Shown here in pieces: positions 12,234 through 37,874 of a stretch of 64,000 bases of DNA. The DNA lies in NCBI RefSeq assembly GCF_002117485.1, contig NZ_CP021030.1:313001-377000 (forward strand). The letters are read 5' to 3'. Origin of the DNA: Rhizobium sp. NXC14 (lineage in GTDB: Bacteria; Pseudomonadota; Alphaproteobacteria; Rhizobiales; Rhizobiaceae). Each line of letters opens with the position of its first letter. Within the stretch, counting starts at the first letter, position 1. The notes under the pieces were generated by a model. The model saw nothing but the letters and a program-made list of their open reading frames with translations. It was not told where the DNA came from and did no database searches. Position numbers and translations under genes: made by a program.

Positions 12234-13571
12234 CTATTTTTCCCGCATCGCCCGGCGGAAGTTCTGTGTGATCGGCTCGGCGAGGTAAGAAAGCACGGTG
12301 CGGGCACCCGTCCGGATCATCGTCTCGCTCGACATGCCGGGCAACAGCTTGCGGCCCTCCAGCTTGGCAAGCTCGCTCTGGTCGATCACAACGGTCGCGG
12401 CGAAATAAGGCGCGCCGCTGCGCTCCTCCACCATCCTGTCGGCCGATACGATCTCCACGACACCGTCGAGCGGCGGCAGGTTGTAGCGGGCAAAGGCCGG
12501 AAAACTCACGCGCGCCGGCTGTCCGGGAGCGATCGTCTCGACGTCTTCCGGTCTGACCATCGCCTCGATGACGAGCTGCTGTCCCATCGGGACGATCGTC
12601 ATCAGGGTCTCGCCGGGTTTCACCACGCCCCCGGTCGTATGGACCTTCAGGTCCATGATGATGCCGTCAACCGGCGCGACGACGTTGGTGCGGGCGAGCA
12701 CGTCTTTGGCGGAGCGTTCTTCCTGCCTGAGGTCAAACATTTCCGCTTCGACTTTGCTCAGCTCCTCGACGGCCTGGTTCAGCTGCAAGGTGTTGAGGTT
12801 GAGGATCTGCATGTCGATCTCGGCCATGGCGCTCCTGGCGCGAGCGATGGCTGCGACATTGGTCGCGCGCTCCCCTTCGACTTCCCGCTGTTGCCGTCTG
12901 AGCAGCAGCCAACGCTCGCGGGTGACGAGGCCGCGCTTGACAAGGCTCTCGAGATCCCTGGTTTCGCCTTCGAACACCTCGATCTGCTTATCCTCGGTAA
13001 CGATGAGTTCCTGCAGTCCCGTTATCTCTTCCTCGGTCTGGCGGCGGCGCTGGCTGAGGATCTCTCGCTCGTCCTTCAGATTGTGGTGTTTCGCCGAAAA
13101 CACGTCACGTTGAGCGGCCACCGCGTCCTTTGCCGATTTGGTGGGGTTTGCAAGCAGCGCCGGATCGAACTCGATCTCGGCTTTGCCGTCGCGCTCGGCC
13201 CTCAGGCGAGCGGCCAGCGCCTCGCGCGTCGCGATCCGGTTCTGGACCAGATCAAGCCTTGCCCTCGCCTGCGTGTCATCGAGTTGGAGGAGGACCTTGC
13301 CGGCCTTGACGATGTCGCCGTTGGCGGCGGTCAATCCTGCAATGATCCCGCCCTCGAGGTGCTGAATGAGCTTGCGGTCACCGGCAACCTTGACAAGGCC
13401 GGGCGCCACTGCGGCGCTGTCCAGCGGTGCAAGCGTCGCCCAGCCTCCGGCCATGCCGAAGAACAGGAACATGATCGCAAAGCCGGTGAAAGTTAGGCCC
13501 GTGAGCCGCAGCGGGACCGGTGCAACGGGCGGCGAAACGGGTAATGGAACGACCTTCAGGTCCTTTTTCAT
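12234..13571 (-). CDS. HlyD/PrtE-family type I secretion periplasmic adaptor
   Basis: A 445-residue membrane-fusion protein. One N-terminal transmembrane helix (LTGLTFTGFAIMFLFFGMAGGW, split by the membrane boundary) is followed by a lipoyl half-domain, a long coiled coil (about residues 130-300, rich in E/R/L such as LSQRRRQTEEEITGLQELI) and a C-terminal beta-barrel with VVKPGETLMTIVP. It bridges the ABC exporter to an outer-membrane TolC-type channel that is not encoded here. It is the last gene of the unit exoprotein-ABC-HlyD, 18 bp after the ABC gene. The architecture resembles rhizobial PrsE; orthology is not proven. Confidence 0.92.
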   Translation of the reverse strand: MKKDLKVVPLPVSPPVAPVPLRLTGLTFTGFAIMFLFFGMAGGWATLAPLDSAAVAPGLVKVAGDRKLIQHLEGGIIAGLTAANGDIVKAGKVLLQLDDTQARARLDLVQNRIATREALAARLRAERDGKAEIEFDPALLANPTKSAKDAVAAQRDVFSAKHHNLKDEREILSQRRRQTEEEITGLQELIVTEDKQIEVFEGETRDLESLVKRGLVTRERWLLLRRQQREVEGERATNVAAIARARSAMAEIDMQILNLNTLQLNQAVEELSKVEAEMFDLRQEERSAKDVLARTNVVAPVDGIIMDLKVHTTGGVVKPGETLMTIVPMGQQLVIEAMVRPEDVETIAPGQPARVSFPAFARYNLPPLDGVVEIVSADRMVEERSGAPYFAATVVIDQSELAKLEGRKLLPGMSSETMIRTGARTVLSYLAEPITQNFRRAMREK

Positions 13572-13589
13572 GGCGGTTTCGTTCCCTTG

Positions 13590-15320: not shown

Positions 15321-15396
15321 GTCTCTGGGTACGAGATTACATGCGAATGCAAAGACAGTGAGGGGGCAGTCTTGGCTGCCCCCGTTTGGTCAGTTG

Positions 15397-18300
15397 TCAG
15401 GCGACGTCGACAAGGATGTGCTGCATCGCTGTCTGATCGCCATCGGCGTCCACCACATTGAAGGCGAAGTCGAGATTGGCGTTCGGCGTCTGCGTCACGG
15501 TCGAGGTGAAGCCGATATCGGTGATCTTCAGCACGTCGTTATCGGTGGCATCGAAGTCGACCAGACTTGACGCCGCATTGCTGCCGCCATTGGCGCCGGT
15601 CACGCTGTTGAGGTCGATCGCCGCAGCGGTGCCGGTGATCCCATTGCCCGACTGCATGATTTGCGCACCCTGCAACACGTAGTCTTCGCCGGCGGCGTTG
15701 TAGTCGTTCTGCTCGACAATCACGAGGCCGTCATTATTGTCGAGCGTGAACTCGGTATTATAAGGCGCCGGAACCTGGCCGGTCTTGTAGATATCGGCGT
15801 TCGACACATACATCGCCCGGGTGATCGTCGAGTTGTCGTCCGCGTTGCCGGCGATGTTGTCGGCGCCGTTCTTGTCAATCAGGTTGAGGATCAGCATCAG
15901 ATCCTCGCTGCTGCCGATGCCGTCGAACTTGATGGCCATCGCGCCGGCGGTCGCCGTCGGGGTTGTGACTTCGTTGGCGATGCCGACATTGCTGTTGAAG
16001 AACCGCAAGGTCAGCAGTTCGTCTTTCTGGATCGTGTCGCCCGCAACACCGTTGGTGCTCTGTGTTGCTGAGACCCAGGTTTCGTTGGTGTTGCTGACCA
16101 TCTCGTGAGCGTCGGGGGTGAAGGTGGAGTCATTGGATGACCCCTCGCCATTGCTCGTGAGGCTGAACGGGTGGGATTTGTCGATCAGGTTGCCGGTGAA
16201 CTGTACGTAGAAGTCTTCGTCCGCCGTTGTGTTCGGATCATCCGCCTGCAGTTTTTCCACCACGATCTCAGGATGGCCGGTATTGCCCGTCGGCTCCTTG
16301 GACAAGAGTTCGCTGGTGTGGAGCACGTCGAAGCTGAAGCCTTCGAGCGGATCCGTCAGCTGGATCGTGTAGGTGTCGGCGACCTTGTCGAAGACCAGGG
16401 TGCCGCCTGCCGTTCCGACCTGGTTGCCGGCCGCCGGGTCCTTGTCATAGGTGAAGGTGAAGTTGAACGTCGCGGAAGTCAGGCTCTCCGAGGCGAGCGT
16501 TACATTCGAACTGAGAAGACTGCCGCCGCCGCCGCCGGTGATCGTGCCGGTCAGTCCGATCTGGACGCCGGCTGTCTGGGTGTCCTGGTCGACGAAGTCG
16601 GAGCCGCCATTCGTATAGAACGCGGCCGGATGAATGTCCGCGCCGATATCATAGCCGAAGGCGCCGCTCGCCGATGCGTTGAGTACATTGGCCAGGGTCT
16701 CATGCTCGATAGCCAGAGTAGCCGGGTTACCGTCGAACGGCTTTGTGATCGTCGGCCCGTCATCCTCGAAGTTGAGGTTCTGGCCGATATTGCGGATGGC
16801 CGAGGCCTGATCACCGTCACGGTCGGTGATGGTGGCGGTCAGGGTGACGAGGTTGGCGTTCGCCAGGGTTCGGCTGTCATCCGGGTCGCTGGCATTGGCA
16901 TGGACGATTGCCCTTTGCTGGTCCAGGGTGACGACGCCTGCAGTGCTGACGCTGACGGTGAAGACGACCGCGCCGGCGACGGATCCGGCGCGTCCGACGA
17001 CATTGCCGCCTTCGAGGTAGAGCAGCACGGACTGGCCGGTTGCGGTGTCGGTGAGGCCGCTGGCACTGCCGGCCTGGCTGATGCCGAGCGCATAGGTGGT
17101 GGCCGCGGCGCCATCGGCCCCCGCATTCGAGGTGAAGGAGGTTGAGAAGTCACCGGTGGCGTTGGTCGTCAGGACGGTCTCGTCGACTGTCACCTGCGGT
17201 GGAGTGCCGCTTGCCGTAATACTAGGCCCGTCATCTTTGAAGTTGAGGTTCTGGCCGATATTGTGGGTGGCCGGGGCGTGATCGCCGTCACGATCGGTGA
17301 TGGTGGCGGTCAGGGTGACGAGGTTGGCGGCCGCCAGGGTTCGGCTGTCATCCGGGTTAGTGGCGTCCGCATGAACGATTGCCCGCTGCTGATCGAGGGT
17401 GACGACGCCGGCAGCGCTGACGCTGACGGTGAAGACGATTGCGCCGGCGGCGGATCCGGCGCGTCCGACCACATTGCCGCCTTCGAGGAAGAGCAGCACG
17501 GACTGGCCGGTAGCGGTGTCGGTGAGGCCGCTGACATTGTTGCCCTGATTGATGCCAAGCGCATAAGTAATGGCGGCGCCGCCGCCATCGGCCCCGGCAT
17601 TCGAGGTGAAGAAGGTCGAGAAGTCGGCGCTGGCATTATCCGCCAGCACGGTCTCGTCGACTGTCAGTTGCGGCGGGGTGCCGGTTGCCGTGATGCTCGG
17701 CCCGTCATCGTCGAAGTTGATGAAGGAGCCAACTTCTTCGTTATAGGCGTTACTGACGTCACCGCTGAAATGCACTTCCTTGACATCGAAATAGTCATGC
17801 CCGGCGTCGATATTCTTGATGGTGAAACGGTCGAAAGTTCCGCCAGCCCCGCCGGCGGTGGCGAAGTCGACCGTCACGCCCTCGCCGACATTGCGAAGGA
17901 TCAGCCCGGTTCCTGAGAGATCGACAGTAATGCCGAGTGCTGCTGCTGTCGTTGCCACACCGTTCAGCTTGAAAGTTACGCCGGTGATATTGATCTCGGT
18001 ATCGTTGTCGTCAGTGGGGAACGAAGCGCCCTCCACATTGTCGTTATTATTATAGGCATGGATCTCCATGTCGGCGACGCTGCTGGTCGGCGTCGACTGC
18101 GAGACCGAAAAACCGGCGCTCGAGACGTTCTCGATGTGCGAGCCATAATCGGGTGCAGTCGGCGTGTCGGTAAAGCTTTTCCCCGCACTCTGGATGCCGC
18201 CGGTGATCAGGTCGATCTGAAGTTCACGGCCCTCGCGCACGTCTTGAGAGGCGACGCCAAGGCCTTGGGTGCTGACATTGACTTCCGCCTGCACGCCATT

Positions 18301-18954
18301 GTCGTGTGCCGTCACCAGGATCTTCTGCGGGCTGGCGGCGTCGGCGTCGAGAATATACCAGTTGTTATGTCCTGAAGGGGCATCGCCAAGCTGGCTGAAA
18401 TTCACCACCGTGGTTCCGGTGACCGAGGCGAACACCTTGTTGGTCAGATCAATGCGGTCGTCGGCGTTGTTCACATCGGGATGGAGCAACGGCACGTATT
18501 GGACGGTATAGAGGTCGGCGTTGGTGGCGCTGGTGCTGAGGAGCGCCAGCGAAAAGGCGAGCGGCCCCCCGGCGGCCGGCGCGGTGAGCGCGTCGGACGT
18601 GCCGATCACCCCGATCACGACGTTTGCATGCGTTGCATCTTGGAACAGCCAAACGTATTTGCCGTCGACGGTGCGAATGCCGCTGTTGACGCCGACCGTG
18701 GTGGAGTATGGGGTCCCGGAAGAGTTCTGGGTGAGAACCACCGAGGTGATGGTTTCCCCGGCGTTGGCCGAGGCCACGACGAAATTGCTCTGGTAGGCGA
18801 CTTCCGGCGTGGTCAGCCCACCGGCAGCGTCGAGGCTCAACAGATATTGCACCGTCGCATTGTTATGTGGCGCAATCGCTGGGTTGACGTCGTCGTCCTG
18901 GAAACTGGGGGTTTCGTCGATGATGAGATCTTGAGTTGTGATATCGAGTGCCAT
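15397..18954 (-). CDS. Giant secreted DUF5801/T1SS-143-type repeat exoprotein, likely type I secretion substrate
   Basis: An acidic 1185-residue protein without an N-terminal signal peptide (MALDITTQDLIIDETPSFQDDD) and almost free of cysteine. The C-terminus ends in short aliphatic residues (QHILVDVA), as expected for a C-terminal type I signal. It contains repeated DDGPSI modules and two nearly identical tandem domains (residues about 419-576 and 577-733), each with LTVDETVL, TDTATGQSVLLFLEGGNVVGR and VTLTATITDRDGD; these resemble the DUF5801 repeats-in-toxin family. Classical RTX nonapeptide arrays are absent; only one weak GADNIAGNADDN is seen. The likely role is surface adhesion or matrix formation. 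It is transcribed first in the type I secretion unit. Confidence 0.86.
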   Translation of the reverse strand: MALDITTQDLIIDETPSFQDDDVNPAIAPHNNATVQYLLSLDAAGGLTTPEVAYQSNFVVASANAGETITSVVLTQNSSGTPYSTTVGVNSGIRTVDGKYVWLFQDATHANVVIGVIGTSDALTAPAAGGPLAFSLALLSTSATNADLYTVQYVPLLHPDVNNADDRIDLTNKVFASVTGTTVVNFSQLGDAPSGHNNWYILDADAASPQKILVTAHDNGVQAEVNVSTQGLGVASQDVREGRELQIDLITGGIQSAGKSFTDTPTAPDYGSHIENVSSAGFSVSQSTPTSSVADMEIHAYNNNDNVEGASFPTDDNDTEINITGVTFKLNGVATTAAALGITVDLSGTGLILRNVGEGVTVDFATAGGAGGTFDRFTIKNIDAGHDYFDVKEVHFSGDVSNAYNEEVGSFINFDDDGPSITATGTPPQLTVDETVLADNASADFSTFFTSNAGADGGGAAITYALGINQGNNVSGLTDTATGQSVLLFLEGGNVVGRAGSAAGAIVFTVSVSAAGVVTLDQQRAIVHADATNPDDSRTLAAANLVTLTATITDRDGDHAPATHNIGQNLNFKDDGPSITASGTPPQVTVDETVLTTNATGDFSTSFTSNAGADGAAATTYALGISQAGSASGLTDTATGQSVLLYLEGGNVVGRAGSVAGAVVFTVSVSTAGVVTLDQQRAIVHANASDPDDSRTLANANLVTLTATITDRDGDQASAIRNIGQNLNFEDDGPTITKPFDGNPATLAIEHETLANVLNASASGAFGYDIGADIHPAAFYTNGGSDFVDQDTQTAGVQIGLTGTITGGGGGSLLSSNVTLASESLTSATFNFTFTYDKDPAAGNQVGTAGGTLVFDKVADTYTIQLTDPLEGFSFDVLHTSELLSKEPTGNTGHPEIVVEKLQADDPNTTADEDFYVQFTGNLIDKSHPFSLTSNGEGSSNDSTFTPDAHEMVSNTNETWVSATQSTNGVAGDTIQKDELLTLRFFNSNVGIANEVTTPTATAGAMAIKFDGIGSSEDLMLILNLIDKNGADNIAGNADDNSTITRAMYVSNADIYKTGQVPAPYNTEFTLDNNDGLVIVEQNDYNAAGEDYVLQGAQIMQSGNGITGTAAAIDLNSVTGANGGSNAASSLVDFDATDNDVLKITDIGFTSTVTQTPNANLDFAFNVVDADGDQTAMQHILVDVA
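16754..17698 (-). repeat. Two tandem ~472-bp direct repeats within the exoprotein gene
   Basis: The phrase GGCCCGTCATC opens units at 16754, 17225 and 17699 (plus-strand reading), giving one 471-bp and one 474-bp unit, equal to 157 and 158 codons. The units are highly similar at DNA level, including long identical blocks such as those containing GTCGGTGATGGTGGCGGTCA. The third occurrence at 17699 opens into unrelated sequence. Such in-frame tandem units can recombine to add or delete whole domains without breaking the reading frame. Confidence 0.9.
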
Positions 18955-26284: not shown

Positions 26285-26305
26285 CTTCTCCCCTCGGGGG
26301 AGAAG
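26285..26305. repeat. Hairpin remnant of a rhizobial mosaic intergenic repeat
   Basis: CTTCTCCCC (26285-26293) and GGGGAGAAG (26297-26305) form a 9-bp stem with a 3-base loop, followed by GTGCCGGCAGGCGATGAGG. This matches the left end of the longer repeat at 31804-32006 (stem, then GGTGGCCCGAAGG and GATGAGGG). It lies in the 245-bp gap between coaBC and the SDR gene, in which I see no gene. Confidence 0.65.
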
Positions 26306-26396: not shown

Positions 26397-27161
26397 TCAG
26401 GTGCGAGTGATCGAAATGCCGCCGTCGACCAGCGAGGCCGTACCGGTGACGAAGCTCGCATCATCGGAGGCGAGGTAGAGAACCGAGCGGGCGACTTCAT
26501 CAGGTGTCGCGACGCGCTTCAGCGCATGCATAGCGGTGATGGCAGCCTGCTTGTCTGCTGTATCGTTCACATCGCGGTACATGTCGGTATCGACGGCCCC
26601 CGGCAGGATGGCGTTGACGCGCACGCCCTGCGGCCCGAACTCGGCGGCGAGAGCCTGCGTCAGGCCGATCAGGCCGGATTTGCTGGCGGCATAGGCGGCA
26701 ACGCCGGGAAAGGCGAAGCTGTAGCCGACGAAGGTCGAGGTGAAGATCACCGAGCCGCCGCCATTTTCTGCCATCGCGCCGATCTGATGTTTGGCAGCGA
26801 GAAAGGATGCTGTGAGATTGACGGCCAGCGCGTCGCTGAAGCCTGCTTCCGAGACACCGGTGCTCGGACCGGCTTCGCCGATGATGCCGGCATTGTTGAA
26901 GGCGATGTCGAGCTTGCCATAATTCGTCATCGCGGCGGCCACCAGCGCTTTATGATGATCTTCCGAGCGGACGTCGCCGGCAACGGCAATAGCCTTGCCG
27001 CCCTCGGCCTCGATCTCTGCGACGAGGCTGTGGAGTTCGCGCTCGCGGCGCGCGCCGACGACGACCTTGGCACCTTCGGCGGCAAAGAGCTTTGCCGTGA
27101 CGCGGCCGATGCCGGAGCTTGCGCCGGTAACGATTGCGACCTTGTCATTCAAGCGGTTCAT
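26397..27161 (-). CDS. SDR-family NAD(P)-dependent oxidoreductase
   Basis: A 254-residue classical short-chain dehydrogenase starting MNRLNDKVAIVTGASSGIGR, which carries the TGxxxGxG dinucleotide loop. It also has the NNAG motif (IAFNNAGIIG), the catalytic Tyr-x3-Lys (YAASKSGL) and the C-terminal LVDGGISITRT. The substrate is unknown. The ATG at 27161 has an AGGAG site 7-8 bases upstream; the longer frame from 27224 is rejected. It is divergent from the LysR gene (123-bp gap), the classic layout for a LysR-controlled enzyme. Confidence 0.92.
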   Translation of the reverse strand: MNRLNDKVAIVTGASSGIGRVTAKLFAAEGAKVVVGARRERELHSLVAEIEAEGGKAIAVAGDVRSEDHHKALVAAAMTNYGKLDIAFNNAGIIGEAGPSTGVSEAGFSDALAVNLTASFLAAKHQIGAMAENGGGSVIFTSTFVGYSFAFPGVAAYAASKSGLIGLTQALAAEFGPQGVRVNAILPGAVDTDMYRDVNDTADKQAAITAMHALKRVATPDEVARSVLYLASDDASFVTGTASLVDGGISITRT

Positions 27162-27283
27162 GGTTGCATCTCCTGTGGTTGACCCGAGGCGGCCCTTGCC
27201 GTTTCGTTGATCAGAAGATGGCATTTTCTTTTCGTTCGGATTAGTCTCCAGATTGAGGAACTGGAATTCGGAAATACCGAACG

Positions 27284-28189
27284 ATGATCAGGATAGAAGG
27301 CATCGCGGCTTTCGTTGCCGTGACGGAGGCAGGCTCGGTCAGCGAGGCGGCCAGGCGGCTGCGGCTGTCCAAATCCGTCGTCAGCGAAAGATTGGCGGAA
27401 TTGGAGAAGTCCTTGGGCGGCGTCCTGCTGCACCGAACGACACGCAAGCTCACCTTGACGGAGGACGGAACTGTATTTCTGCAGCGCGCCGCGCGCATCG
27501 TGCGTGAAATTGACGAGGCCGCCGCCGATATGGCCGAGCGGCGCGGCACGCTGTCCGGTCCGATCCGCATCGCCGCCCCGGTCACGTTCGGCCGCATGCA
27601 TCTCGGCCCGGCGCTCTACCCCTTTCTTGCCGACCATCCCGATATCGAGTTGACGCTCGATATCGATGACCGCCGCGTCGATGCGGCCTCGGACGGCTAC
27701 GACGCCATCATCCGCAACGGCCCGATCGCCGACAGCCGGCTGGTCGCCTGGAAGCTCACCCATAGCCGCCGTCTTCTCTGCGCCTCGCCGGATTATCTGG
27801 CCCGCGAGGGAACGCCGTCGTCGCTCGCCGACCTCAACCGCCATCGCGGCGTCTTCTACACCAATCGCGGCGTTGCCGACTGGCGCTTCCAGACGCCGGA
27901 GGGGGCGGTCGTCGTCCGCGCCAAACCGGCGCTCGCCATCAATAATGGCGACATGCTGCGCGATGCCGCGATTGCCGGCCTTGGCATCGCGCTGCTGCCG
28001 GCCTTCATCGCCGGCCCGGCCATTCGCGAGGGGCGGCTTGCCGAAATCGATGTCGGTCACAGGCCGGAGGCCGAATTCATCTATATGGCCCATCCCGAGG
28101 GCCGAAATCCCTCGGCCAAGCTTCGCGCTATCGCCGATCACCTGAGAAAGAGCTTCGGGGACCCGCCCTATTGGGATCCAGCGGGCTAA
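27284..28189 (+). CDS. LysR-family transcriptional regulator
   Basis: A 301-residue LTTR. The N-terminal winged helix-turn-helix covers residues about 1-60 (VAVTEAGSVSEAARRLRLSKS then VVSERLAELEKSLGGVLLHRTTR), and the substrate-binding domain begins at LSGPIRIAAPVTFGRMHLGPAL, typical of the subgroup regulating small oxidoreductases and exporters. It is divergent from the SDR gene and followed 3 bp later by an MFS gene in the same direction, so it may control both. A T-N11-A operator could lie in the 27162-27283 gap; I could not fix one by eye. Confidence 0.92.
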   Translation: MIRIEGIAAFVAVTEAGSVSEAARRLRLSKSVVSERLAELEKSLGGVLLHRTTRKLTLTEDGTVFLQRAARIVREIDEAAADMAERRGTLSGPIRIAAPVTFGRMHLGPALYPFLADHPDIELTLDIDDRRVDAASDGYDAIIRNGPIADSRLVAWKLTHSRRLLCASPDYLAREGTPSSLADLNRHRGVFYTNRGVADWRFQTPEGAVVVRAKPALAINNGDMLRDAAIAGLGIALLPAFIAGPAIREGRLAEIDVGHRPEAEFIYMAHPEGRNPSAKLRAIADHLRKSFGDPPYWDPAG

Positions 28190-28192
28190 CGC

Positions 28193-30063
<1,871 letters not shown>

Positions 30064-30114: not shown

Positions 30115-31776
30115 TCATCCAAGCTTTATATAGGGAACGTCCTTCTTCGCCACCTCATCAAGCGCCTCGTCATATCCGGCATCGGCATATCGCATCACGC
30201 CGAGCGCGGTGTCATTGGTCAGCGCATGGTCGAGCCGTTCGTCGGCGGCGTCGGTGCCGTCGGCGATCACGGTGACGCCGCAGCTGGTCATGTAGCCGGC
30301 ATAGCCGCCGCCGCCGGAATGGACGACGACGAGATCGGCCATCGAGGAGCAGAGCATCATCGCATCGATCAGCGGCCAGTCGGCGATCGCGTCGGAGCCG
30401 TCCTTCATCCGCTCGGTCATGATATTCGGATGCGCCATGGCGCCGGCATCGAGATGGTCGCGGGAAAAGGCGACAGGACCCTTGATCTCGCCGCTTGCAA
30501 CCAGCGCATTGACACGCCGCGCCAGCAGCGTGCGTTCGCCGTGACCGAGCCAGGCGATGCGCGCCGGCAGCCCCTCGAAGGGCACGTGCTCGCGCGCCAG
30601 CCGGATCCAGTTGGTGATGATCTTGTTGTCGGGAAACATCTGGATGAGCAGGTCGTCAATCCTCGCGATATCGCTCTCCTCGCCCGACAGAGCCATCCAG
30701 CGGAACGGCCCGATCGCCCGGGCAAACAGCGGCCTGAGATAGGCTTCGGTGAAGATCGGAATATCGAAGGCGTTGGCGACGCCCCCCTCGCGGGCCTGCG
30801 TGCGGATGAGGTTGCCGTTGTCGAAGACTTCCGAGCCCTTCTTCTGGAAGGCGAGCATCGCGCTCACATGCTCGACGATTGAGGCGCGGCTTGCCGCCAT
30901 CAATTGCCCCTGGCCATCGTCGCGCAGGCCTTGGACCTGATCGAGGCTCATGCCCTTCGGCACGTAGCCATAGACGAGGTCATGCGCCGAGGTCTGATCG
31001 GTGACGATATCTGGCACGATGCCGCGCCGGGCAATCTCGGGATAGACCTCCGCCGCATTGCCGACGAGACCGACGGACAGCGCCCGCTTCGCCTTTACGG
31101 CTGCATCGATCATCTCAAGGGCGGTATCGAGATCGGGAGCGATTTCCTGGAGATAGCCGATCTGCTGGCGCTTGCGCGCCCGCTCCGGGTCGATGTCGAC
31201 GCAGAGGATCGCCGCGCCCGCCATGCGGCCGGCGAGCGGCTGTGCGCCGCCCATACCGCCGAGGCCGGCCGTCAGCACGAAGCGGCCGTGGAGGTCGCCG
31301 CCGAAGCGCCGCTCGGCAATGCGCATGAAGATTTCATAGGTGCCCTGGATGACGCCTTGGCTGCCGATATATTGCCAGGCTCCGGCCGTCAGCCCACCCC
31401 AGCAGATCAGCCCTTTGCGCTGCAGCTCGTAGAACACTTCGGCCTTTGCCCATTGCCCGACGATGTTGCAATTCGCCATGATGACGAGGGGAGCCCTGGC
31501 ATGGGTCTTTACGAGCCCTATCGGCTTGCCGGACTGGATGAGCAGCGTCTGGTCCTCATCCATCTCCGTCAGCGCCTTGACAATGCCCTTGTGCGCCGCC
31601 CAGTTGCGGGCGGCCTTGCCGAGCGCGGCATAGACGATCAGATTGTCGGGATCCTCGCCGACGGCGAGCACGTTTTCGAGCAGCCGCAGCAGCGCCTCCT
31701 GCCGCCAGCCCTTGGCGCGCAACTCCGGCCCACCGGGAATCGGAAATTTCGGATGGCGTGGATTGACCTTCGGCAT
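30115..31776 (-). CDS. HutU-family hydratase, probable thiourocanate hydratase
   Basis: A 553-residue urocanase-family protein with an NAD+-binding Rossmann insert (VLTAGLGGMGGAQPLAGRMAG). Features at odds with urocanate hydratase: the Cys of the conserved GLPARICW motif (catalytic Cys410 in Pseudomonas) is Ala408 (GLPARIAWLGHG), and HHGGGVGMGY reads HSGGGGYAGY. The expected role is hydration of thiourocanate, produced from ergothioneine, using tightly bound NAD+. The ATG at 31776 (GAGGAA site) is used; a longer frame upstream runs through a repeat element. It is the last gene of the minus-strand operon, separated from the TfoX gene by that repeat. Ordinary urocanase remains possible. Confidence 0.82.
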   Translation of the reverse strand: MPKVNPRHPKFPIPGGPELRAKGWRQEALLRLLENVLAVGEDPDNLIVYAALGKAARNWAAHKGIVKALTEMDEDQTLLIQSGKPIGLVKTHARAPLVIMANCNIVGQWAKAEVFYELQRKGLICWGGLTAGAWQYIGSQGVIQGTYEIFMRIAERRFGGDLHGRFVLTAGLGGMGGAQPLAGRMAGAAILCVDIDPERARKRQQIGYLQEIAPDLDTALEMIDAAVKAKRALSVGLVGNAAEVYPEIARRGIVPDIVTDQTSAHDLVYGYVPKGMSLDQVQGLRDDGQGQLMAASRASIVEHVSAMLAFQKKGSEVFDNGNLIRTQAREGGVANAFDIPIFTEAYLRPLFARAIGPFRWMALSGEESDIARIDDLLIQMFPDNKIITNWIRLAREHVPFEGLPARIAWLGHGERTLLARRVNALVASGEIKGPVAFSRDHLDAGAMAHPNIMTERMKDGSDAIADWPLIDAMMLCSSMADLVVVHSGGGGYAGYMTSCGVTVIADGTDAADERLDHALTNDTALGVMRYADAGYDEALDEVAKKDVPYIKLG

Positions 31777-31803
31777 AGTGGGTTCCTCGTTTGGTTCTCT
31801 GCT

Positions 31804-32006
31804 TTTCCCTTCTCCCCAGCGGGGAGAAGGTGGCCCGAAGGGTCGGATGAGGGGGCCGCACGGCACGCCCTCTATTGCTCTTCGCTTGCGCTCAGCGCAT
31901 TCGCTCCTGGCGTCGCTCACCCCCTCATCTGTCCTTCGGACATCTGACCGGGGTCGAGCCGCAGGTCTAGCCCCGTCCTTCAGACCCCCACAGGGGAGAA
32001 GGGAAA
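31804..32006. repeat. ~203-bp mosaic intergenic repeat with 14-bp terminal inverted repeats
   Basis: Ends TTTCCCTTCTCCCC (31804-31817) and GGGGAGAAGGGAAA (31993-32006) are perfect inverted repeats. Inside are a short hairpin (CTCCCCAGCGGGGAG), the phrases GGATGAGGG and CCCCTCATC, and CATCTGTCCTTCGGACATCTG. The combination is typical of the abundant mosaic/RIME-type elements of rhizobial genomes; the name is from memory. There is no transposase frame. It sits between the TfoX and hydratase genes of one operon and could affect mRNA processing there. Confidence 0.8.
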
Positions 32007-32011
32007 TGGCA

Positions 32012-32341
32012 TCACTTGCTCGGCAGCGATTCCACATAGGCAAGCGCCGCATCGAGCAGACGCCGTCTCAGGGCATCGTCGCCGTAAGCCTCGGCGGAGG
32101 CGCGCAGCCAGCCGTGCATGACCCGCTCGCCCATCAGCATCCGGATTACGCCCGGCAGCGCCAGTGCCCAATCATCATTGCCCTTGCCGAGACGGATCAG
32201 CATGCCGTCACTGCGCGCACCGCAGAGAAGATTGCCGTCCAACAGGAAGGCGCGGCCGCCGAACATGGATTTTTCGCTGAGGCCAGGACGATCGCCGAGT
32301 TCCTCACGCAGCAGTTCTTCAAGGCCGGGATCGCGTGCCAT
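32012..32341 (-). CDS. TfoX/Sxy N-terminal-domain protein
   Basis: A 109-residue protein with the TfoX N-domain pattern: LEELLREELGDRPGLSEKSM, then FGGRAFLLDGNLLCGARSDGMLIRLG. There is no C-terminal TfoX domain, so it is the short type, which is common in rhizobia and of unknown function. It starts 3 bp after the DUF917 stop and therefore lies within the presumed ergothioneine operon. No role in that pathway is known to me, and it may simply be carried along. Length and composition resemble its neighbours. Confidence 0.85.
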   Translation of the reverse strand: MARDPGLEELLREELGDRPGLSEKSMFGGRAFLLDGNLLCGARSDGMLIRLGKGNDDWALALPGVIRMLMGERVMHGWLRASAEAYGDDALRRRLLDAALAYVESLPSK

Positions 32342-32344
32342 GGC

Positions 32345-33442
32345 TCAGGCCTTCGCCGCCAGTGCATAACGCGCGATCTCGATTCCCATCGCCTTTTCGA
32401 CGGCGGGATAAACGGTCGGATCGAGCACGCTGGCCGACAGCGGAATGATGTCCATCGGCACATGCAGGATGAAGATTTGCATGCCCTCCCTGAGTTGGCC
32501 GACACTCAGCGGCTCGCCCTCAGGCGATAGTGTGGTGATGACGGCGGGGAAAGTCGCAAGCCGCCCGCCACCCGCATCGTCGACGGCCATATATTCGTTC
32601 ATCACATGCAGCGTCACCGATCTATCACCCGAGCCGACGGCGATGGTGCCGATATCGAAGGCTTCCTTGGTATAGACGACGTCCTTGCGGACGATGACGC
32701 CTTCGGCGAGGATATATCCGCCCGTCGTCTTGCAGATCGCGTCGATGACGGCTGATCCGCCGCGCTTTTCCGCCGCGATGATTGCTTCCCCGAGCGCAAG
32801 CGCCATCGAGATGCCGCCGAGAGCCGCATGGGCCCTGATATAGGAGGCCCGGAGGGGATTGCGGCAGCTGGCGATGAAGCCGCCGGACTGATCGGCGGCG
32901 GCGCGCAGCACCGGCGAGATCTTGGCCGTCGCGCCCTTCACCACCAGCTCAATGTAACGGTTCTCGGCCCTGTTGCCGCCGACGGCGGTCTGGATCATCG
33001 GCTCGGGTGAGGCGGCCATGCCGATCGAGCCCATGTCGCCGGTCGGATGTGCGCGGATATCGCCGACGGCATCGACCACCTTGGTGCCGAGGATCGCCGA
33101 TGGCAGCCAGCCGTTCAGCGTCGAGGATTTGCCGTTCTGACCTATGATCAGCCCGGAAAGCCTTTCGCCGAGCGCCTCCTGCAGCAATTGCACGGCCTTG
33201 ACGTAGTCGACGCCCTGCATTTCCCAAGGCGTGGTGGAAGCCGGCGCGCCGATCGCCGCCGCCGTGGCGATCCAGGCGTCATCCTTCAATTCGTCGACAG
33301 ACACCAGTTCCGGCTTGCCGATGGTGACGGCCGCAAGCCCGAGCATCCGACCGTGATCGGCCCAGCCGCCACCGCCGGCGGCATAGACGGAGCCGCCTTT
33401 GACAGCGGCTTCCACGTCCTTCTCAACCAGTATGCGTCCCAT
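32345..33442 (-). CDS. DUF917 protein, probable thiohydantoin desulfurase
   Basis: A 365-residue DUF917-family protein starting MGRILVEKDVEAAVKGGSVY then AAGGGGWADHGRMLG, with conserved TPWEMQGVDYVKAVQLL, HPTGDMGSIGM and VCKTTGG-like CKTTGGYILAEG stretches. DUF917 proteins occur in hydantoin-type catabolic clusters, and in ergothioneine breakdown one is reported to remove sulfur from the thiohydantoin intermediate. The gene overlaps the upstream carbamoylase-like gene by 20 bp and is followed at 3 bp by the TfoX gene. The desulfurase role comes from context, not from a catalytic motif I can point to. Confidence 0.82.
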   Translation of the reverse strand: MGRILVEKDVEAAVKGGSVYAAGGGGWADHGRMLGLAAVTIGKPELVSVDELKDDAWIATAAAIGAPASTTPWEMQGVDYVKAVQLLQEALGERLSGLIIGQNGKSSTLNGWLPSAILGTKVVDAVGDIRAHPTGDMGSIGMAASPEPMIQTAVGGNRAENRYIELVVKGATAKISPVLRAAADQSGGFIASCRNPLRASYIRAHAALGGISMALALGEAIIAAEKRGGSAVIDAICKTTGGYILAEGVIVRKDVVYTKEAFDIGTIAVGSGDRSVTLHVMNEYMAVDDAGGGRLATFPAVITTLSPEGEPLSVGQLREGMQIFILHVPMDIIPLSASVLDPTVYPAVEKAMGIEIARYALAAKA

Positions 33443-34703
33443 CGACCTTCTCCCGCTTCGAATCCTTGTCCATCTCGCGCACCGCTTGGAAAAGCACGGC
33501 TGCGCCGAGCGCGATATCGTCATTGTCGGCCCATTCGTCGGGGCAGTGGCTGCGACCTCCCCGGCAGGGCACGAAGATCATTGCCGCCGGCGCCACCTTG
33601 GCGATCCAGGCGGTATCGTGCCCTGCGCCGGAGGCCATGCGCCGGTATTTTGCGCCGACGCGTTCGCAGGCGGTCTCCAGCGTCGAAAGCAGCGCGGCAT
33701 CGCTGGGCGTTGGCAGATTGTCGGAAACCCGGTTCGGCGTCTCGATCGTCACGCCGTAGGCGGTCGCCAGCTTTTCGACATGGCCATCGAGCCAGCGGCA
33801 GAAGGCTTCCATGTCGGCGCGGATTTCCGCGCGCCCGTCGATCAGCAGCACAACCTTCGACGGCACGACATTGGCGGCATTCGGCTCGATCCTGAACTCG
33901 CCGACCGTCGCCGCGAAATGCCCCGGCGTCTTGGCAAGCTCGGCGGCAGCATTGCGGATGTCGAGCACTAGCTGCGAAGCCGCCAGCAGCGCATCCGCCC
34001 GCCTGTCCATCGGCGTCGTGCCGGCATGGTCGGCCCGGCCCTCGATGGTGATCTCGATACGGGTGATGCCGGAGATTGCCGTGACGATGCCGATATCCTC
34101 CCTTTCGGCTTCGAGCACCGGCCCCTGCTCGATATGGAGCTCCAGGAAGCCTGCCAGATCGGGCCGCTTCTGCTGTCCCAGCACGCCGGGCTCACCGCCC
34201 ACCTGGGCGATGCCGCCGGCAAGATCGAGGCCGCCGCTTGCCCGCGACAGCCAGGCTTCCGGCAACTGCCCGGTCATGCCGCGGCTGCCGATGCATGAGA
34301 CGCCGAAGATACTGACCTCCTCGGCAAGGAAATCGACGATCTCCAGATCGTGGTCCAGTTCCAGGCCGTGGTCATGCAGCGCCCGCGCCACCTCGAGCGC
34401 CGCGACCACGCCGGCAACGCCGTCGAAGCGGCCGCCCTCCGGCACAGTGTCGGAATGCGAGCCGAGCATGATCGTGCCGGACCAGGGCTTCCTGCCGGTG
34501 CGCCGGCCGATCAGATTGCCGGCGGCATCGATCCGCGTTTCCAGCCCTGCCGCCTTCATCCGCGCCTCGATATGGGCCCGGCCTTCCAGAAAGAGCGGCG
34601 TGAAAGCCCGCCGTGTCCAGGGGCGCCCCGGCTCGGTGATATCGGCAAGCGCCTCGATGTCTTCAGCGATCCGGCCGGCATTGACGGGAAGATTACGGCT
34701 CAT
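33423..34703 (-). CDS. M20-type Zn-dependent amidase: N-carbamoyl-amino-acid hydrolase (hydantoinase/carbamoylase family)
   Basis: A 426-residue metallopeptidase-fold amidohydrolase. Metal-ligand motifs are visible: GSHSDTVPEGGRFDGVAGV, the Glu-Glu pair in FLAEEVSIFG, and LELHIEQGP; the dimerisation/substrate His lies in GRADHAGTTPMDRR and a C-terminal SGAGHDT supplies another ligand region. The family includes N-carbamoyl-L-amino acid hydrolases, beta-ureidopropionase and allantoate amidohydrolase. Here the expected reaction is removal of the carbamoyl group from N-carbamoyl-L-glutamate as the last step of the pathway. It overlaps the hydantoinase-like gene by 4 bp and the DUF917 gene by 20 bp. 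Confidence 0.86.
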   Translation of the reverse strand: MSRNLPVNAGRIAEDIEALADITEPGRPWTRRAFTPLFLEGRAHIEARMKAAGLETRIDAAGNLIGRRTGRKPWSGTIMLGSHSDTVPEGGRFDGVAGVVAALEVARALHDHGLELDHDLEIVDFLAEEVSIFGVSCIGSRGMTGQLPEAWLSRASGGLDLAGGIAQVGGEPGVLGQQKRPDLAGFLELHIEQGPVLEAEREDIGIVTAISGITRIEITIEGRADHAGTTPMDRRADALLAASQLVLDIRNAAAELAKTPGHFAATVGEFRIEPNAANVVPSKVVLLIDGRAEIRADMEAFCRWLDGHVEKLATAYGVTIETPNRVSDNLPTPSDAALLSTLETACERVGAKYRRMASGAGHDTAWIAKVAPAAMIFVPCRGGRSHCPDEWADNDDIALGAAVLFQAVREMDKDSKREKVDGTHTG

Positions 34704-36079
34704 GTGGCGGCTCCCGAAATGACCTGGCGCGGCGGCGGCCGGACGAACCGGCCGGTGCCGGGCGAGGCCAGCACCTTGCCGCCCTCGGCGATCTTTTCGC
34801 CGCGCAGATAGGTGGCGGAGACGGTCCAGGGCAGGCGAATGCCATTATAGGGGCTCCAGCCGACGACGTTGTTGCCGCTCGCAGACGCATCGTAGATGCT
34901 TTCGCGCGGCTCCAGCAAGGTGATGTCGGCGTCCTTGCCTGGTGTCAGCGCTCCCTTGATATGGTCGAGCCGGAAATGCTTCGCCGGATTTTCGGCCATC
35001 AGCCGCGCGGCCCAGGTAAGGGGAATGCCGCGCTCGAGAGCGCCTTTGACGAAAAGCGGCACCATCACATCGAGACCGGGAACACCGGATGCATTGGCGA
35101 GCATGTCGGGATCGGTCTTGCGGTTCTCCGACCAGCTGACGTGATCGGTCGAGACCAACCAGACATCGCCTTTGGCCACCTTCCGCCAGAGCCTCTCCAC
35201 CTCGGCGCGCCGCCGCACCGGCGGGTTGATCTTCGCCTTGCCGCCGAGGCGCCTCACATCGTTTTCCTCGTCGAGCGTCAGGTAATGGATGCAGCATTCG
35301 ACTGTCGCGGCAAAACCATCACGGCGATAGGCGCGGGCGATGTCGTAGCCGCGCCCGAGCGAGCAGTGCACAACGTGTGCGGGGCAGCCGGTATTGGCCC
35401 CGGTCTCGAAGATCGTGTGCATCGCCAGCAATTCGGTAATCGCCGGCCGAGATAGGCCGTGCGCCCGCCAGTCGGTGATGCCGCTTGCCTTTACCTGCTC
35501 CATATAGCTGCGCACCGCCTCGTCATCCTCATTATGCACACCTGCCGTGAGCCCGGTCGGCGCGATCGCCGCAAAGCAGGCGTCCAACAGGGCGGGGGGA
35601 ATGCGCGGAAAACGTTTGGGATCGGTGCCGAAGGTCGAAAATTTGAAGGCGGCGACGCCGGCCTCGACCATCTCCGGGATTCGCGCCGGGCCTTCTTGCG
35701 GATCGATGGTGCCGTAGAGCGCGAAATCGACGCGCGCCTGCGGCGCGGCATGGTCGATCTTCCGCTTGACCGCCGCCGCCGAGCAGACGAGATTGCCCTC
35801 GTCGTAAGGCATGTCGACGATCGTCGTCACGCCGCCGGCCGCTGCCGACCGCGTCGACCAGACGAAATCCTCCTGATCCTTCTGGGAAAGCGAATGCACC
35901 TGCGCGTCGATGGCGCCGGGCAGGATCAACGCTCTTCCGAGCAGATGCCGTTCGCGCGCCGCAGGCGGGACGCCGAGGCCGACTTCGGCGATCTTGCCGG
36001 CGTGCACGGCGACATAACCCGCTTCGACGATGCGGTCCGGCAGCACCACCGTGCCCTGCAGAACGAGATCGAAGTCCAT
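34700..36079 (-). CDS. Hydantoinase/dihydroorotase-like cyclic amidohydrolase
   Basis: A 459-residue amidohydrolase-superfamily enzyme starting MDFDLVLQGTVVLPDRIVEA. The metal-binding region after strand 1 reads PGAIDAQVHSLSQKDQEDF: the usual His-x-His is Gln-x-His, a variant also seen in some dihydroorotases. Later marks are the bridging-lysine region AAFKFSTFG, HCSLGRGYD, and DHVSWSEN carrying the late Asp. The expected role is opening the hydantoin ring of hydantoin-5-propionate to N-carbamoyl-glutamate. The ATG at 36079 has a GAGGAAG site; the frame's longer start at 36208 lies in the gap after the lyase gene. It couples to the next gene by an ATGA overlap. Confidence 0.85.
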   Translation of the reverse strand: MDFDLVLQGTVVLPDRIVEAGYVAVHAGKIAEVGLGVPPAARERHLLGRALILPGAIDAQVHSLSQKDQEDFVWSTRSAAAGGVTTIVDMPYDEGNLVCSAAAVKRKIDHAAPQARVDFALYGTIDPQEGPARIPEMVEAGVAAFKFSTFGTDPKRFPRIPPALLDACFAAIAPTGLTAGVHNEDDEAVRSYMEQVKASGITDWRAHGLSRPAITELLAMHTIFETGANTGCPAHVVHCSLGRGYDIARAYRRDGFAATVECCIHYLTLDEENDVRRLGGKAKINPPVRRRAEVERLWRKVAKGDVWLVSTDHVSWSENRKTDPDMLANASGVPGLDVMVPLFVKGALERGIPLTWAARLMAENPAKHFRLDHIKGALTPGKDADITLLEPRESIYDASASGNNVVGWSPYNGIRLPWTVSATYLRGEKIAEGGKVLASPGTGRFVRPPPRQVISGAAT

Positions 36080-36208
36080 GCCGCTTCCTCCTAGACTGAC
36101 ATCGGTTGCCGGCCGAAACGTGATGCCAAAGCTTGAACGTCTTTCGGACGGCATCACGCACCGACTGGTTAATGTAGGGCAGGATCGAGATTTTGGGCTC
36201 GCCCGCAA

Positions 36209-37786
36209 TCACCCTGCTCGGCTGGCCAAGCGCCCTTCGATGGGCTCCGGCGAACCGAGTGCGAAGAAATCGTCGAAGGAGGCGATCGAAACCTGCTCGG
36301 TCAGCTTCGCGAGAAAGTCGTCCGATCCGAGCTCTTCCTCGATCGCCTCCACCTCAGCCGAAAGCGGCCGGTCGACGGTATAAAAGGCCGCATGTTTGCG
36401 CACGACGTCGTAGAGCATGCCGGCTACGCCCTTCGGTTCATCGCCGAGTATGTCGATCGCCTGCGCAGATAGCAGTGCCTCGAGTGCCGCGAGGCGCTTC
36501 AGCGCCTGCATCTGCCGCTCGAAGCGCTCGATGACCAGCGGCAGGAAGGCGGCCTCGTCCTCCAGGCCGGCCGCAACGACCAGCGACTGCGCCGAAACGG
36601 GACCGGACATCGACAGGACGCGCGAGAAGATTTCGCCGGCAAGCTTGATGATCGGCCCGAAGCCGGTGGCAATCCGTCCCGGCGGCACGAGGTTAACCGG
36701 CAGGTCGCGCCGTTGACCGTTGCCGAGAATGACGCAGCGGTTGAAGGCGTTGCGCGCCGCATGCGCCATGCAGAGTGCGGCCGATTCGAGCAGGATCGTC
36801 ACATCGAGCGGAAGCGAACCGCCTGATGTCATCACCCGGCCCTCGACGACGACCGGATTGTCGTCCGAGCGTCCGGTGGCGGCAAGAATCTTGTGACCGG
36901 TCGAAAGCAGATTTTCGATGACGGCGCCGAACACCTGGGCGATCATGCGCAGGCTGAGCGGATCTTGCACATGCGTTGCAACCGGCCAGTCCCATTCGTC
37001 CGAGGCGTTGCAGAGCCAGGCGCCGATCAGCGCCTCACGCGCCGTGCCGACATGGCGGACCGCCTTCCAGGGATCGCGGGAGGCGCCGAGCGCACCTGAT
37101 GCCATCATCCCGGTCGAAAGCAGGATGCGGATCGAGGCCGCGGCATTTCGCGTCGTTTCCGCCGCTGCCGCAAAACTCACCGCATTGATGCTGAGCGAGG
37201 CGAGACTGTCGCGCGGCGCCATCCGCACCGGCTGCAGACCCGCCGCCCGGAAAGCGTCGGCCGCCTGCATCCGGCTGCCGCGGTAGACCGCTTCACCGAC
37301 GCCGGTCAGCACCGCGCCGATCTGCCCCATCAGGCCAATATCAGCGCAGCCGATCGAGCCGGTGCGGCGCACCACAGGAATGAGATCAGCCTCGAGCATC
37401 GTGATATAGGCCTCGATCAGTTCCGGCGTGCAGCCGACCTGGCCGGTCAGCGCCGTGTTGATGCGGATCGCCATGGCATTGCGCACGACATTGCAGGAAA
37501 ACGGCGTGCCGGTGCCGAAGTGATGGGCACGCACCAGGCCGAGGTTAAAAGTGTCGAGTTCATCGGCCGACCACTCCACATCCTTCATGGCGCCGACGCC
37601 CGTGGTCGAGCCGTAAACGGGCGTGCCGGCGGCAATCGCGTCCTCGACGATCTCGCGGGCAATCGCGATGCGGGCCATGCCGGTCGGTGAAGCCGAAATC
37701 CTCGCCTTGCCGGCACCAATCGTTACCATCTCGGCAAAACCGAGCGGTCGTCCGGAAAGTTCGATACCAAGGCGTTCGTGCTGCAT
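36209..37786 (-). CDS. HAL-family lyase without MIO triad, probable ergothionase
   Basis: A 525-residue member of the histidine/phenylalanine ammonia-lyase superfamily, with the active-site Tyr loop VYGSTTGVG (Tyr58) and the RTGSIG stretch that normally leads into Ala-Ser-Gly-Asp. Here the triad that cyclises to the MIO electrophile is replaced by Cys147-Ala148-Asp149 (GSIGCADIG). It should therefore not work as an ordinary histidine ammonia-lyase. Ergothionase, which eliminates trimethylamine from ergothioneine to thiourocanate, is a MIO-independent member of this superfamily and fits the neighbourhood. It is first in the operon, with AGGAG before the ATG and ubiB 88 bp upstream. Confidence 0.84.
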   Translation of the reverse strand: MQHERLGIELSGRPLGFAEMVTIGAGKARISASPTGMARIAIAREIVEDAIAAGTPVYGSTTGVGAMKDVEWSADELDTFNLGLVRAHHFGTGTPFSCNVVRNAMAIRINTALTGQVGCTPELIEAYITMLEADLIPVVRRTGSIGCADIGLMGQIGAVLTGVGEAVYRGSRMQAADAFRAAGLQPVRMAPRDSLASLSINAVSFAAAAETTRNAAASIRILLSTGMMASGALGASRDPWKAVRHVGTAREALIGAWLCNASDEWDWPVATHVQDPLSLRMIAQVFGAVIENLLSTGHKILAATGRSDDNPVVVEGRVMTSGGSLPLDVTILLESAALCMAHAARNAFNRCVILGNGQRRDLPVNLVPPGRIATGFGPIIKLAGEIFSRVLSMSGPVSAQSLVVAAGLEDEAAFLPLVIERFERQMQALKRLAALEALLSAQAIDILGDEPKGVAGMLYDVVRKHAAFYTVDRPLSAEVEAIEEELGSDDFLAKLTEQVSIASFDDFFALGSPEPIEGRLASRAG

Positions 37787-37874
37787 GTGCCGTATCTCCT
37801 AAACTGCGAGACTAAGCCAGCCCTCCGTCACACGGGATATCCTAAATGCCGAACACAGCATGTTATCGGAGCGG

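Follow-up and report, generated by a model that had tools for sequence, protein, structure and literature searches.

A 64,000-nt stretch of the chromosome of Rhizobium sp. NXC14 (hereafter the window) carries what is very probably a complete operon for the catabolism of ergothioneine, an antioxidant that contains sulphur and is produced by fungi and bacteria of the soil. The window spans positions 313001 to 377000 of contig C1 (4.49 Mb) of a genome, G000, that totals 6.69 Mb in four contigs. Between window positions 30115 and 37786, six codirectional open reading frames (ORFs) on the minus strand encode a lyase of the histidine ammonia-lyase (HAL) fold, a hydantoinase, a carbamoylase, a desulfurase with DUF917/S-Me-THD domains, a TfoX_N-domain protein and a HutU-like hydratase (Table 1). 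These genes, with their strand, order and Pfam family, had been named in an earlier note made from the sequence alone, and the ORF list and a Pfam search confirm them. Four of the five enzymes score above the cut-offs of NCBIfam equivalogs for ergothioneine catabolism (E ≤2.3e-180); the fifth, the lyase, lacks the methylidene-imidazolone (MIO) triad of HALs and carries residues of the ergothionase type. These data support the ergothioneine-to-glutamate interpretation that the earlier note had put forward.

Organization of the operon and assignment of its enzymes

Gene starts were corrected by homology. The hydantoinase begins at the ATG at 36079 (the longest ORF opens at a TTG at 36208), the desulfurase at the ATG at 33442 and the hydratase at the ATG at 31776, although its open frame extends to 32052. 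With these coordinates, the lyase and hydantoinase genes are separated by 129 bp, the hydantoinase and carbamoylase genes overlap by an ATGA (34700-34703), the carbamoylase and desulfurase genes overlap by 20 bp (33423-33442), and 3 bp separate the desulfurase gene from tfoX. The two overlaps are as first reported; the gene order, described then as near-continuous, is so at all junctions but the last, since tfoX and the hydratase gene lie 235 bp apart. This last gap contains a palindromic repeat, TTCTCCCCGCTGGGGAGAA, at 31810-31828. A second copy lies at 26286-26304 (0 and 2 mismatches; chance expectation 0.01), and the repeat resembles rhizobial intergenic mosaic elements.

Table 1. Coordinates of the operon features within the window, with scores and model cut-offs.
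Feature	Position	Strand	Evidence
MIO-free HAL-superfamily lyase, predicted ergothionase (ergothioneine to thiourocanate + trimethylamine)	36209..37786	-	PF00221 279.7 bits, residues, fold
Hydantoin-5-propionate amidohydrolase (ErtD-like)	34700..36079	-	NF058538 (ErtD) 775.8 bits, cut-off 600
N-carbamyl-L-glutamate amidohydrolase (ErtE-like, M20 family)	33423..34703	-	NF058540 (ErtE) 633.2 bits, cut-off 520
Thiohydantoin desulfurase (DUF917 / S-Me-THD domains)	32345..33442	-	PF06032 + PF20906; NF058529 599.4 bits, cut-off 440
TfoX_N-domain protein, 109 aa, accessory	32012..32341	-	PF04993 40.7 bits, cut-off 30.1
Thiourocanate hydratase (HutU paralogue)	30115..31776	-	NF058530 1056.3 bits, cut-off 930
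Predicted operator/promoter element TGTGTTCGGCATTTAGGATATCCCGTG	37831..37857	-	Begins 71 bp upstream of the lyase ATG; position checked

Enzyme families were assigned with Pfam and then with the equivalogs of NCBIfam release 20, using the cut-off of each model. The Pfam matches comprise Lyase_aromatic, amidohydrolase, M20 peptidase, the N and C domains of S-Me-THD, TfoX_N and three urocanase domains. The hydratase is 66% identical to PDB entry 7ned, as against 50-52% to the HutU of its own genome and to 1x87. Entry 7ned, labelled 'Urocanate hydratase' in the PDB, is presumably a thiourocanate hydratase. The stretches WGGLTAxxWQ, HSGGGGYxGxMTSxGVT and DLVYGYVP are common to the window protein and 7ned and differ in both HutU sequences, and in a tree of 11 rows, two of them HutU, the two proteins group together apart from HutU. 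Among the matches listed, the closest named desulfurases are those of R. esperanzae and R. aethiopicum (96% identity).

Gene order was compared in two sets of loci: 39 read from 297 genomes of the window genome's family, taken as Rhizobiaceae, and 80 listed from a scan of named records in which at least 80 loci contain the desulfurase and distant taxa are under-represented. All five enzymes occur in the same order and direction in 31 of the 39 family loci (four of these 31 with another type of lyase) and all five are present in 78 of the 80 named loci. Given the E-values of the four equivalog matches and the gene order kept across relatives, the operon cannot be put down to chance.

The lyase: loss of the cofactor triad and a separate clade

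The NCBIfam matches of the lyase are confined to models of histidine, phenylalanine and tyrosine lyases and of aminomutases, and none comes near its cut-off (207.3 bits against 539 for the hutH equivalog); thus no ergothionase model was matched. Its nearest PDB chain by sequence is the Treponema denticola ergothionase 6s7j (169 bits; 132 bits for HAL), which also ranks first in a fold search with the predicted structure (mean predicted local distance difference test score, pLDDT, 82.8; template modelling, TM, scores 0.82 and 0.87).

The Ala-Ser-Gly triad of HAL, which forms MIO, is replaced by Cys-Ala in the lyase through a one-residue deletion; the same deletion is found in the T. denticola enzyme, where Glu-Gly remains. 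The position of HAL Tyr280, a catalytic residue, is occupied by Leu277, and by Leu in the T. denticola enzyme too. Lys381 likewise has a Lys counterpart in that enzyme and is absent from the two HALs compared; in 6s7j this added Lys lies near the active site. The lost triad with its one-residue deletion, the Leu and the Lys recur in all 29 window-type lyases of the family loci, in the 24 rows of a second alignment (A2) and, the first triad residue excepted, in five rows of the T. denticola type, and in neither of the two HALs. The Cys, Asp, Tyr, Leu, Arg, Lys and Glu at the columns considered are invariant in those 29 lyases, the triad-region Ala being Ala in 26 and Gly in three. The residues considered are likewise invariant in alignment A2, made of the window lyase and 23 of the 120 lyases listed. 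The five T. denticola-type rows, of which four are nearly identical and come from a single genus, keep all of the seven named residues but Cys, which is replaced by Glu.

Phylogenetic placement had been proposed in the earlier note as a check. Neither the lyase nor the hydratase groups with hutH or hutU, the outcome named beforehand as contrary to the interpretation: both lie apart from the HutH and HutU rows. The lyase, however, does not fall in the clade of the T. denticola ergothionase. In a tree of 39 rows, whose root is arbitrary, which carries a long-branch warning and from which L038, L040, L063, L066 and L068 were left out, the window type forms a clade of its own (support 100/100), and the T. 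denticola type (95/83) and the MIO-type HALs (100/99) lie outside it. By its residues the lyase thus looks like an ergothionase, while the tree does not show it in the same clade. Because of this separation, and because its identity to the T. denticola enzyme is close to that with HAL, the substrate assignment is based on residues and linkage.

For this enzyme, linkage is more informative than the tree. T. denticola-type lyases stand beside the same downstream genes in L037-L040 (four of the 39 family loci, one genus) and in Burkholderia arboris, where the hydantoinase and carbamoylase are about 43% identical and lie on the opposite strand; two lyase types therefore appear to feed one pathway. 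Judged by eye, the L037-type and B. arboris lyases have a signal-like N-terminus, which the window lyase lacks. In-frame stops were seen in 12 of 31 lyase matches, and pseudogenes or recoding were considered. In the four cases taken singly (L057, L061, L065 and L066), the stop lies within 3-12 codons of where the aligned stretch finishes; these are true gene ends overrun by the alignment, and for these four that explanation was discarded.

Distribution

The desulfurase exceeds its cut-off in 40 of the 297 family genomes, and the window-type lyase (E ≤1e-100) is found in 31, all of them among those 40. Four of the remaining nine (G096, G170, G230, G284) have an adjoining lyase of the T. denticola type. 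In G236, whose locus ends at a contig edge, only a MIO-type HutH and a GSAG-type lyase were seen; in G049, G068, G152 and G156, a MIO-type HutH is the sole HAL-family match. G237 carries a window-type lyase elsewhere on the contig that holds its operon. The named loci listed belong to Rhizobium, Neorhizobium, Metarhizobium album and Brucella pituitosa, and to records labelled only Rhizobiales, Rhizobiaceae or Hyphomicrobiales bacterium. Among 72,556 plasmid records, 16 match the desulfurase (E ≤1e-40), ten of them at 67-84% identity; Paracoccus, Thalassospira, Microvirga and Burkholderia are represented.

The window genome has no match to the biosynthetic enzyme EgtD, which is above cut-off in 21 of the 297 family genomes and in none of the 40 with the desulfurase. 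As p = 0.09 for this distribution, mutual exclusion of biosynthesis and degradation is not claimed.

Weighing the assignment against alternatives

Several points weigh against the assignment. The five steps are predictions that follow the pathway in the literature and the family names. Pairwise, the lyase is hardly closer to the T. denticola enzyme (27.5%, 188 bits) than to the HAL of Pseudomonas putida (26.3%, 139 bits), and HALs follow 6s7j closely in the fold search (TM 0.81 and 0.84, a small margin at 0.82 against 0.81). The branch that separates the window clade from the T. denticola enzyme measures 4.8 changes per column, and that enzyme is the one characterised ergothionase placed, those of Burkholderia HME13 and A. 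radiobacter not being among the tree rows. A generic Zn-hydrolase model (NF009531) outscores the ErtE model on the carbamoylase, 837.8 to 633.2 bits. One locus, L042, has the lyase, desulfurase, hydratase and a transporter, but the 19.9 kb read there contain no match to the hydantoinase or the carbamoylase. Finally, for the importer there are only candidates, none of them tied to the window operon. As to L042, its hydantoinase and carbamoylase may be elsewhere in its genome.

It is improbable that the operon serves mainly a different 2-thio- or 2-sulfo-imidazole betaine, for instance ergothioneine sulfonate, with ergothioneine as a side substrate. Such a substrate would fit a lyase clade distinct from the one characterised ergothionase placed, and for A. 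radiobacter a pathway that uses ergothioneine sulfonate is on record (Yan 2022, as cited in PMC13405746). Both the hydratase and the desulfurase score as thio-specific, however, and T. denticola-type lyases take the place of the window-type lyase beside the same genes.

Catabolism of S-methyl-ergothioneine also exists as a pathway, and would release methanethiol instead of sulfide. The desulfurase does belong to the Pfam pair PF06032/PF20906, named for the S-methyl enzyme. Yet desulfurase and hydratase both fall below the S-methyl models (NF058532, 278.5 bits of a required 450; NF058531, 737.5 of 880) and above the thio models (599.4 of 440; 1056.3 of 930). On these scores the S-methyl pathway was rejected as very unlikely.

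We give little credence to a third possibility, that the cell mainly scavenges thiourocanate made by others and that the lyase is a later addition. Operons of hydratase, desulfurase, hydantoinase and carbamoylase genes with no lyase in the stretch read do occur near TRAP transporter genes (L041, L233 and L234), and four family genomes, as noted, have a MIO-type HutH as their only HAL-family match. Against this, the lyase gene occupies the promoter-proximal end of the window operon, and 29 of the 39 family loci have the window-type lyase, with four more having the T. denticola type.

Among these lyase-free operons, L041 contains, beside the TRAP transporter genes, UbiD, a UbiX-like flavoprotein, a CoA-transferase and an acyl-CoA dehydrogenase; L234 contains UbiD, and L233 a CoA-transferase and two acyl-CoA dehydrogenases. 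By appearance, L043 and L051 are of the same kind. The company of these genes suggests that thiourocanate or its dihydro form is used there.

The idea of a second histidine utilisation (hut) cluster, which draws on the homology of lyase and hydratase to HAL and HutU, on the hydratase exceeding the hutU cut-off (694.1 bits against 375) and on records so named, was rejected as next to impossible, given a hutH score far under cut-off, the loss of the MIO triad, Leu at the Tyr280 position, three enzymes (desulfurase, hydantoinase, carbamoylase) that have no role in hut, and a hutU gene (C3:372664-374295) and a MIO-type hutH gene (C3:375518-376894) already present on another contig. The expectation that automatic annotation would mislabel the operon as histidine degradation proved right in part. 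Public names of such genes do include 'histidine ammonia-lyase' and 'urocanate hydratase', besides 'aromatic amino acid lyase', 'DUF917 family protein' and 'allantoinase', but the NCBIfam release 20 models fit the four enzymes other than the lyase.

A TfoX gene bound to the operon

The predicted fold of the TfoX_N protein (pLDDT 93.2) is weakly nearest to VP1028 (2od0, E 1.7e-3) and YjbR (2fki, E 4.2e-2) and points to no function. Counted at E ≤1e-22, a threshold that leaves weaker relatives outside, the gene is present in 15 of the 297 family genomes. All 15 are among the 40 with the desulfurase, and in all 15 it lies 18-28 bp from the desulfurase gene by alignment ends; 19 of 120 rows listed entered the alignment. 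Among the named loci, 70 of 80 have the gene, and in L159, L162, L201 and L209, which lack it, the gap is just 65-89 bp. On a desulfurase plus hydratase tree of 65 chosen rows (26 of the 80 named loci included; loci without both genes dropped), its presence requires nine changes; tfoX therefore comes and goes at one fixed place. By this pattern it is bound to the operon yet appears dispensable, and its product would be a non-essential accessory. A role as substitute for the regulator described below was rejected, since 10 of the 39 family loci carry both.

A conserved upstream element and its putative regulator

The gap between ubiB and the lyase gene contains GTGTTCGGCATTTGGGATATCCC, or close forms of it, across Rhizobium species. 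The core of this GTTCNNNATTTGGGATATCCC-like element (GGGATAT or AGGATATCC in the orientation of the operon) was counted alone in 112 regions before the lyase gene, each 380 bp long (350 bp of upstream DNA and 30 bp of the gene). It is present in 104, compared to 171 of 5600 random windows of the same sequences, coding DNA included (3%). The 112 regions are not independent, because five named loci appear to repeat family genomes already counted (e.g., L153 and G029). The eight regions lacking the core are those of L037-L040, L073 (a one-base variant), L075, L157 and L211. In the window genome, the pattern GTTCNNNATNTRGGATAT has a single exact match, the site upstream of the lyase gene, and one further site with one mismatch (C1:1779246). 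Across the five genomes of the window's genus that were scanned, exact matches are found only upstream of the lyase gene, one per genome. We thus predict that GGATATCC is the operator/promoter element of the operon; transcription would probably begin in the ubiB-lyase gap, from a promoter with this element.

In 25 of the 39 family loci, a LysR gene diverges from the lyase gene (in L046, from the hydantoinase gene). The copy tested, that of L065, has two HTH_1 (helix-turn-helix, HTH) stretches in Pfam. This tandem-HTH regulator is found at the operon in none of the five genomes of the window's genus and in three of the 80 named loci (L202, L214, L215); L167, L172 and L183 end at contig edges. 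It does accompany the operons that Rhizobium sp. SL42 and Neorhizobium NCHU2750 carry on plasmids, so its loss does not extend to all rhizobia so named. Its presence needs four changes on the 65-row tree. As the element persists where the LysR gene is gone, something may still read it.

The tandem-HTH LysR, likely the cognate regulator in the relatives, would have to act in trans in the window genome. Its best relative there lies at C1:482393-483442 (E 7.6e-44, 34% identity over 343 residues; the next match covers part of the length and reaches 42 bits). This relative likewise contains two HTH_1 stretches, and its gene diverges from those of an OpuAC-type ABC transporter. Two findings speak against it as the regulator: its identity to the operon regulators is 29-35%, whereas they share 42-79% with the query regulator, and the promoter of its transporter lacks the element.

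Some loci carry the element at two places or away from the lyase. It lies upstream of both the lyase gene and a binding-protein gene in L215, and upstream of both the lyase and hydantoinase genes in SL42. In a plasmid operon of Paracoccus aminophilus, in NCHU2750 and in G237, regulator and element stand upstream of the hydantoinase gene with no adjacent lyase, which for the first two refers to the operon neighbourhood. Because the element is kept in such arrangements, we infer that the inducer is more likely thiourocanate or a later compound than ergothioneine.

Candidate importers

Genes for OpuAC/YehZ-type quaternary-amine transporters lie inside the operon in L042 (10700-14671) and in L075 (13159-17031, operon on the minus strand), and an OpuAC-type binding-protein gene lies beside the operon of L215 (3170-4033), under the same element. 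All three are candidate ergothioneine importers. In the window genome, the OpuAC binding protein at C1:481061-481987 is 62-70% identical to those of the L042 and L075 operons. This family occurs in 87 of the 297 genomes, 20 of the 40 with the operon and 67 of the 257 without (Fisher p 0.004, kinship not corrected). The LysR gene adjoins it in five of the 30 loci of the binding protein within the flank read, all five from the window's genus. The region upstream of the C1:481 kb gene lacks the element, bar a look-alike of a ribosome-binding site that is not kept in L110. We regard this transporter as a lead.

Directly downstream of the operon (26397-29844) are SDR, LysR (single HTH), MFS transporter and VOC genes. 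The LysR and MFS genes (27284-29461, the LysR gene at 27284 and the MFS gene at 28193) lie on the other strand, and both are present in 65 of the 80 named loci. The MFS protein is another candidate importer.

Other features of the window and genome

Two further HAL homologues were found outside the window. One, in the interval C4:399523-407007 (L092 4523-12007), is a second MIO-free lyase (GSIGAA-DLAP), whose closest PDB chain is 6s7j (269.5 bits). Its neighbours encode an OpuAC binding protein (211 bits to a nicotine-sensor precursor, its best PDB match, and 167 to EgtUC), an ABC permease and ATPase, a phosphonate-type binding protein, an OCD/mu-crystallin protein and a GntR/UTRA regulator; the cluster is perhaps a second betaine-lyase pathway. 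The other, at C3:384630-385994 (L093 8597-10090; triad region GSAG---YLTH), stands beside the hut cluster, downstream of genes resembling an amino-acid ABC transporter and regulators.

In the window itself, a VapB-family antitoxin gene at 29785-30063 (NF040493, 68.5 bits, cut-off 60) overlaps the end of the VOC gene on the other strand; VapC was not noticed beside it, and a vapB-like gene is present in 19 of the 80 named loci. At 12234-18954, genes for an HlyD-family adaptor, an ABC exporter and a 1185-aa protein with DUF5801 repeats, all in one direction, resemble a type I secretion system together with the large protein it exports. The window has no Rfam match at gathering cut-offs.

Discussion

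Following the five-step bacterial pathway reportedly described by Beliaeva, Leisinger and Seebeck in 2021 (doi 10.1021/acschembio.0c00968), a cytosolic MIO-free lyase would take trimethylamine off ergothioneine to give thiourocanate, which the HutU paralogue would hydrate to thiohydantoin propionate. The DUF917 desulfurase would then free sulfide, leaving hydantoin-5-propionate; the hydantoinase would open its ring to N-carbamoyl-glutamate, and the M20 carbamoylase would convert the latter to CO2, ammonia and L-glutamate. The operon would thereby give Rhizobium ergothioneine as a source of nitrogen, sulphur and carbon.

A broader reading joins these elements, and we offer it tentatively, as a possibility on the doubtful side. 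Rhizobiaceae would have their own form of the pathway, with a cytosolic MIO-free trimethylamine lyase of separate descent; at the head of the same four genes, this lyase and the signal-peptide-bearing T. denticola/Burkholderia type would have replaced one another, in one direction or the other. The TfoX_N protein, bound to the operon, would serve the pathway. A dedicated operator (about CGTTCNNNATTTGGGATATCCC) would be read by the tandem-HTH LysR, in Rhizobium off the operon and in trans (best candidate C1:482243-483619, beside a quaternary-amine importer), with thiourocanate as inducer. The lyase-free operons near TRAP transporter, UbiD, CoA-transferase or acyl-CoA dehydrogenase genes would reflect another way by which thiourocanate, or its dihydro form, enters the pathway.

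If common legume symbionts carry an operon that consumes ergothioneine, they may compete with the plant for it, yielding ammonia, sulfide and glutamate. Mycorrhizal inoculation has been reported to raise the uptake of soil ergothioneine by bean (PMC10840373). A 2026 survey by BLASTP with the Burkholderia enzyme concluded that ergothionase is confined to few genera, and conceded that its search might miss divergent homologues (PMC13405746). Judging by the downstream equivalogs, 31 of 297 family genomes would carry a divergent lyase of the ergothionase kind. The element and the TfoX gene offer concrete tests of how the pathway is switched on.

The pathway and the four enzyme models are already known, and the window operon adds to them. 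Ergothionase activity has been reported in A. radiobacter (a thesis; Yan 2022), according to citing papers that include PMC13405746. Among the titles and abstract openings listed in literature searches, none concerned a rhizobial ergothioneine operon or TfoX in one. Within the searches made, four features seem new: the distinct clade of the lyase, the binding of TfoX to the operon, the upstream element and the regulator's absence.

Compared with the five-step pathway, the window operon has all five kinds of enzyme together, four of them modelled by NCBIfam as ergothioneine catabolism; it differs in the extra TfoX gene, which has no place in the five steps, in the separate lyase clade, in the conserved upstream element and in a tandem-HTH LysR that is not at the operon in the window's genus. 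With the T. denticola ergothionase (6s7j; Maurer 2019, as cited in PMC13405746), the lyase shares the HAL fold, loss of the MIO triad by the same deletion, Leu at Tyr280, the added Lys and the conserved positions Tyr53, Arg283 and Glu414; Cys-Ala-Asp in place of Glu-Gly-Asp, the low identity and the separate clade set it apart. S-methyl-ergothioneine catabolism employs the same enzyme families, with models that the window proteins do not reach. Finally, the operon resembles Hut (HutH, HutU) in its homologous lyase and hydratase and in the same end product, but has no MIO, altered active sites and other downstream enzymes, in a genome whose hut cluster lies elsewhere.

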